From assembly GCA_019689515.1 (NCBI GenBank), contig JADGHI010000002.1:1-39272 (forward strand): a stretch of 39,272 nucleotides of DNA. Reading direction: 5' to 3'. The notes under the pieces are model-generated. The model did not search any database. It saw only the letters and a program-made list of their open reading frames with translations, and was not told the DNA's origin. Origin of the DNA: Acetobacteraceae bacterium (GTDB lineage: Bacteria > Pseudomonadota > Alphaproteobacteria > Acetobacterales > Acetobacteraceae). Made by a program: the position numbers and the translations under genes. The stretch's first letter is position 1. Each line of letters starts with the position of its first letter. Positions 6,031 through 6,927 of this stretch are shown in pieces.

Positions 6031-6927
6031 ATGCCGGAACTGCCGGAGGTCGAGACGGTGATGCGCGGGCTCTCCGGCGTCCTGGCCGGGCGGCGTATCG
6101 TGCGGGCGGAGGTGCACCGGGAGGGCATGCGCTTCCCCTTCCCGCCCGGCCTCGGGGCGCGGCTCGAGGGCCGGCGCGTGCTCGGCTTCCGGCGGCGCGG
6201 GAAGTACATGCTGATGCGGCTCGACGACGGCGAGAGCGTGCTGATCCACCTCGGCATGTCGGGGCGCATGGTGGCGCGGCCCATCGGCGCGCCGCCCGCG
6301 CCGCGGCTCGGCCCGCAGGGTCGGGCCTCCGACGCCCGCGGGCACAACCAACCGCCGGGGCTGCACGAGCATCTCGTGATGGAGACTGAAAACGGCATAC
6401 GAGTCGGCTTCGTCGATCCGCGCCGCTTCGGCTGCGTCGATCTCGTGCCGACGGCGGAGGAGGACCGGCATCGGCTGCTGCGGGGCCTCGGGCCGGAGCC
6501 ACTCGAGGACAGCTTCACGCCGGAGGTCCTGTCCGACGCGCTCGCCGGAAAGCGCACGCCGATCAAGGCGGCGCTGCTCGACCAGAAGGTGGTGGCCGGG
6601 CTCGGCAACATCTATGCCTGCGAGGCGCTGTTCCGCGCCGGGATCTCGCCCCGCCGCTCGGCCCACACCGTCCCGGGCGAGCGCGCCGCGCGGCTGGTGC
6701 CGGCGATCAAGGCGGTGCTGACGGAGAGCATCGGCGCCGGCGGGTCCAGCCTGCGCGACTATGTGCGCGCGGACGGCGAGATCGGCGCCTTCCAGGAGCG
6801 CTTCGCGGTCTATGACCGCGAGGGCCAGCGCTGCGAACGCTGCCCCGGCCCGCCGGACTGCGACGGCATCCGCCGCATCGTGCAGTCCGGCCGCTCGACC
6901 TTCTTCTGTCCGCGCACCCAGCGTTGA
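6031..6927 (+). CDS. mutM: Formamidopyrimidine-DNA glycosylase (Fpg/MutM)
   Basis: This base-excision repair enzyme removes 8-oxoguanine and formamidopyrimidines and cuts the abasic site. The 298-aa protein begins MPELPEVET, which supplies the catalytic Pro-1 and Glu-2 after methionine removal. GRRGKYML contains the lysine of the catalytic core and [16 protein letters not shown] the DNA-contacting helix. The start at 6031 is fixed by this N-terminus and by GGAGGAAGAGGA upstream; the longer track ORF is excluded. The C-terminal zinc finger is odd: it reads [10 protein letters not shown]...[12 protein letters not shown], with three cysteines in the first half and only one in the last, where CPxCQR is usual. 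Length and core motifs say it is otherwise intact. Confidence 0.96.

Follow-up and report, generated by a model that had tools for sequence, protein, structure and literature searches.

Bacterial Fpg/MutM proteins, represented by the structures from E. coli (1K82), G. stearothermophilus (1R2Y), L. lactis (1PM5) and N. meningitidis (6TC6), possess a Cys4 beta-ribbon finger, which serves to hold a hairpin in such a way that one arginine rests on the phosphates to either side of the lesion (PMC9266487). A published family analysis describes the four zinc cysteines of the main bacterial Fpg clade as perfectly conserved (PMC3188539), and the fingers of PDB entries 6TC6, 1K82 and 1L1T all align as 2+2, that is, with two cysteines on each side of the arginine; the other bacterial Fpg entries that were matched are largely the same few species or mutants. 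The ligand set is nonetheless changeable within the Fpg family, since the L. lactis variants C248GH and C268H complement a mutator strain, and C248GH has been crystallised (PMC4176347). At the same time, not every background leaves the zinc site open to adjustment, since changes to the E. coli finger are reported to abolish DNA binding (PMC4176347). Human NEIL2 (CHCC), like engineered C248GH, is an example of an Fpg/Nei zinc site that withstands a different choice of ligands and altered spacing, and the zincless fingers of NEIL1, plant and fungal Fpg and Mimivirus likewise depart from the textbook Cys4 set while the clamp arginine is kept.

Here we describe a MutM encoded in a 39,272-nucleotide stretch of Acetobacteraceae DNA (the window) in which one finger cysteine is replaced by threonine and another appears upstream. 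The reading that we favour, at a probability of about 0.86, is that this is a working MutM/Fpg 8-oxoguanine/FapyG glycosylase with a structural zinc on Cys268, Cys271, Cys277 and Cys293 instead of on the textbook set. No earlier description of a 3+1 set was found in the open-licence literature, a body of work that most subscription papers lie outside.

A MutM with a 3+1 cysteine finger

The window protein is a MutM on all criteria tested, the textbook finger motif being the one exception. Its reading frame is intact, and the MPELPEVE N-terminus, the catalytic P2 and E3, the active-site Lys58, the H2TH residue Asn193 and the finger Arg288 are all present, the last five being invariant in an alignment of 59 MutMs. 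The protein scores 325.3 bits against NCBIfam NF002211 (cut-off 212) and 250.2 bits against TIGR00577 (cut-off 203.3), it matches the Pfam N-terminal and H2TH domains, and it is the sole H2TH protein detected in its incomplete genome. The gene lies between ubiE, on the opposite strand, and the genes for enoyl-CoA hydratase, ribosomal protein S20 and DnaA, and the nearest named relatives are Acetobacterales (e.g., Rubritepida, 73% identity). An AlphaFold2 model (pLDDT 89, with 85–96 in the finger block) has 1R2Y as its top PDB match (E 3.2e-31) and superposes on 1K82 with a TM score of 0.93 by target length. The fold, N-terminal catalytic motif, H2TH domain and finger arginine are thus those of the structurally described enzymes, and the role of the protein is probably the ordinary one of an 8-oxoguanine glycosylase.

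Residues 86–109 or so (window positions 6286–6357) form a low-confidence insertion in the model (pLDDT about 50) that L003, L006 and L219, among other close relatives, also have and that is absent from L220 and L221; it is probably a flexible loop.

The finger itself reads C-x2-C-x5-C ... C-P-R-T-Q and contains four cysteines (Table 1). The first, second and third cysteines of textbook Fpg/MutM are shared, but the last is threonine, so that the 2+2 set is incomplete, and there is an extra cysteine in a finger loop that is five residues longer. The original prediction had called exactly this pattern, a threonine at the last ligand position with an extra cysteine in the first half, and had placed the ACC codon correctly; translation bears it out. 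Against the Pfam finger model PF06827 the window finger scores 16.3 bits, under the cut-off of 21.3, with only model positions 11–26 matched. The same model, at an E-value of 0.1, recovers 15 of 15 fingers in a 2+2 set compared with 7 of 15 in a 3+1 set, and profile-based annotation can thus miss 3+1 fingers.

Table 1. Features of the window mutM gene and its finger.
Feature	Position in window	Strand	Basis or remark
mutM/fpg, formamidopyrimidine-DNA glycosylase	6031..6927	+	298 aa plus stop
Cys268-x2-Cys271, first two proposed zinc ligands	6832..6843 (Cys268 6832-6834, Cys271 6841-6843)	+	translation
Cys277, proposed third zinc ligand (relocated), within the longer knuckle loop	6859..6861	+	third-Cys distribution in alphaproteobacterial MutMs
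Arg288, finger arginine clamping the phosphates around the lesion	6892..6894	+	invariant in 59 MutMs; role from PMC9266487
Cys293, third Cys of the textbook set and proposed fourth zinc ligand	6907..6909	+	invariant in 59 MutMs
Thr296 (ACC), vacated site, where textbook Fpg has its last Cys	6916..6918	+	12 residue types at this site in 98 3+1 relatives

The source is a draft assembly of 760 contigs at 78% completeness, and a sequencing or assembly error, or a gene in decay, might on that account be suspected. The pattern is, however, seen again in many independent genomes. Two congeners (L003, 88% identity; L005, 82%) and a member of a close genus (L004, 80%), each from an independent assembly, share C-x2-C-x5-C with CPxTQR, which disposes of the sequencing error that the original prediction had left as an escape. 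With the frame intact, the catalytic residues and neighbouring genes normal and the congeners in agreement, frameshift, pseudogene and assembly error are ruled out, and the probability of any such explanation is negligible.

Coupled gain and loss of cysteines across the class

Relatives were sampled from 60 genomes, then from the class Alphaproteobacteria, from the rest of the phylum and from 80 named loci, which after removal of duplicates amounted to 256 distinct alphaproteobacterial MutMs and 40 from other classes of the phylum (296 in total). Among the relatives from the 60 genomes, the 3+1 arrangement is common to most of the family. Named records that carry it come from Acetobacterales (Rubritepida, Acidisphaera, Asaia), Roseospira, Magnetospirillum, a Kiloniellaceae bin and Micavibrio, and the last cysteine is retained in the named records sampled from Rhodobacterales, Hyphomicrobiales and Caulobacterales; several of the named records are metagenome bins, whose names serve as labels only. 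Cys268 and Cys271 are unchanged in the closest relatives and across the named 3+1 set.

Alignment of the four finger positions in related MutMs, which the original prediction had proposed as a check, reveals that the 3+1 pattern recurs in 98 of the 256 alphaproteobacterial proteins, and what had been noted as a peculiarity of one gene is instead a variant that spans the lineage. When the fingers are classed by the number of cysteines before the arginine and by the residue at the last site, the alphaproteobacterial counts are 98 (three, non-Cys), 2 (three, Cys), 136 (two, Cys), 8 (one, Cys) and 12 (two, non-Cys), and the 40 MutMs sampled from the phylum's other classes all show the textbook CxxC...CxxC. 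One protein, L179, was parsed as 3+2, but its extra cysteine sits upstream of the finger, making it 2+2; it and L255 were recoded by eye for the ligand tally and the dependent-evolution tests described below.

Put in terms of a rule, 98 alphaproteobacterial MutMs have three cysteines before the arginine without the last one, 144 have the opposite, and 14 are off-rule. It is clear that gain and loss of the two cysteines are linked far beyond chance (Fisher p = 3e-54 for extra against last cysteine, n = 256, in a test that ignores kinship). The statement of perfect conservation (PMC3188539) is contradicted as a general rule by this sample, about two fifths of which, broad as it is, break the four-cysteine rule in a compensated manner and with recurrent switches.

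The off-rule proteins are themselves informative. In the 12 with two cysteines and no last cysteine, the last site is His in eight and Asp in two, and L030 (CGDH...C, i.e., CxxH..C) and L116 (CKHCSH, i.e., CxxCxH) have a first-half His. Once His or Asp at the last site and the first-half His of these two are counted as ligands, 195 of the 296 proteins have only the textbook fourth ligand, 96 only the new one, five have both and none has neither.

These data bear directly on the possibility that the finger is zincless, with nothing but packing to support its hairpin (as in NEIL1 or plant Fpg) and with its remaining cysteines as leftovers. The absence of the textbook fourth cysteine and the sub-threshold Pfam score would both fit such a finger. 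Leftover cysteines should, however, decay jointly, and instead each loss is paired with a gain, and His or Asp take over from Cys at ligand sites. Furthermore, zincless clades are reported to show high variability at the ligand positions (PMC3188539), and this is not seen here: Cys268 and Cys293 are constant in 59 proteins and only the vacated site is free to vary. Zincless fingers lose the ligand set; the window MutM retains four ligand-capable residues. We therefore consider this explanation very unlikely. The original prediction had offered a different zinc set and a zincless finger as alternatives, and it is the former that is strongly favoured, in that four ligand-capable residues are nearly always kept, Cys at ligand sites gives way mainly to His or Asp, and drift is confined to the vacated position; the latter is at odds with ligand positions that are not jointly variable.

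Several natural variants of the finger deserve mention in their own right. CCCH fingers, with His at the last site, occur in L036, L043, L055, L057, L074, L095, L239 and L265, and CCCD fingers, with Asp there, in L085 and L098; the His form is constant in the sampled members of families f94 and f36, and the Asp form in those of f34. A single first-half cysteine is found in L024, L125, L289, L291, L088, L090, L133 and L296. Seven of these eight proteins have Asp or His in the first half, and several read C-x3-D-G-G, Sphingomonadales among them, which suggests that Asp or His may be a zinc ligand in such fingers. The eighth, L088, has three cysteines only and no His or Asp before the arginine, and a four-ligand site is thus not absolute in the class.

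The proposed zinc site

From the sequence we infer, for the window MutM, that zinc is bound, that Cys268, Cys271, Cys277 and Cys293 hold it, and that activity is normal; the site has probably been rewired and not lost. The C-terminal knuckle would have given up its ligand, at what is now Thr296, in exchange for a cysteine in a longer first knuckle, and zinc on the four cysteines would still pin the beta-hairpin from which Arg288 reaches the DNA backbone. In NEIL2 and C248GH one ligand changes identity nearly in place, whereas in the window MutM a ligand would move between knuckles. Finger length is consistent with such a move. The distance from the first cysteine to the arginine is at least 17 residues in every 3+1 finger, compared with 15 in 39 of the 40 fingers from other classes (the length of the 40th is a parser artefact), and a longer loop accompanying the extra ligand is what would be expected if the loop must bend back to the metal.

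A separate observation on length concerns MutMs of the form C-x4-C...CxxC (e.g., L227, L264 and L272), which also differ from the textbook C-x2-C and appear as a rigid alternative: the distance from first cysteine to arginine is 17 residues in 88 of 88, and the form is common in Rhodobacterales and Hyphomicrobiales.

The position of the third cysteine varies among 3+1 relatives from 1 to 10 residues past the second, and in 56 relatives the arrangement is CxxCxC...C. Four-cysteine sites can take iron, and the latter arrangement could be taken to favour another cofactor on the four cysteines, such as an iron-sulfur cluster, or iron in place of zinc. However, a third cysteine that may lie anywhere within this range, and switches between 2+2 and 3+1 that recur among close relatives, are better accommodated by one structural zinc, with which the CCCH and CCCD variants are compatible too. 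Another cofactor accordingly seems very unlikely as well.

The vacated site is occupied in the 98 3+1 proteins by Arg, Thr, Lys, Leu, Gln, His, Trp, Ser, Tyr, Ala, Asn or Val, and the Gln directly after it is kept in all 98. It might be argued that zinc is bound by Cys268, Cys271 and Cys293 together with Thr296 or water, with Cys277 incidental, given that the nearest relatives often have Thr there (16 of the 98 overall). This stands in contrast to the other 3+1 proteins, where Arg, Lys, Leu, Trp, Ala or Val is found and the extra cysteine is kept. Drift at the vacated site alongside a retained extra cysteine argues against an incidental Cys277, and coordination by Thr296 or water is very unlikely.

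Phylogeny of the finger states

Trees were inferred from the MutM protein without its finger, in versions of 177 and 296 proteins. Parsimony requires 31 changes per trait on the former and 36 on the latter, against about 80 for shuffled labels (closely related coding), and these counts are likely too high because the tree backbones are weakly supported. When only well-supported branches of the 296-protein tree are considered, about 11 independent contrasts run in the same direction and none in the opposite (p about 0.001); the 177-protein tree offers about four such contrasts, too few to reach significance. Pagel-type models of dependent evolution, fitted with bounded rates, beat independent ones by likelihood ratios of 124–196 on two trees. 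Whether gain or loss came first was also sought in the Pagel rates, but the two trees disagree and no order is claimed.

Both finger states occur within one family in five families. In one of these, L075 (CPGCTC...CLARQR, three cysteines and Arg) is separated by a tree distance of about 0.4 from the 2+2 proteins L060 (CPTRDC...CARCQR) and L094 (CPTPGC...CTHCQR), and the finger lengths are equal. In addition, L265, which has no third cysteine and His at the last site, has two 3+1 proteins as its nearest neighbours and looks like a reverse switch. Overall, the 3+1 finger is a real variant of the Fpg zinc site, compensated and spread across the lineage, and the class offers a natural system for studying how a metal site moves without loss of function.

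A bolder proposal is that the alphaproteobacterial site has repeatedly moved back and forth between 2+2 and 3+1 (and also to CCCH, CCCD and C-x3-D), and that altered thiol exposure might let 3+1 enzymes keep their zinc where oxidants or thiol-reactive agents strip it from textbook Fpg. The cysteine lost in 3+1 fingers is one of the two reactive cysteines of L. lactis Fpg. We hold the proposal as a whole to be rather unlikely. The distribution is also relevant to Fpg inhibitors that eject zinc, for example 2-thioxanthine, whose target cysteine is the one missing in the window MutM.

Finally, one finger in the sample, that of L047, contains five cysteines (CQQCDGC...CGHC) and may represent a step between the 2+2 form and the 3+1 form.
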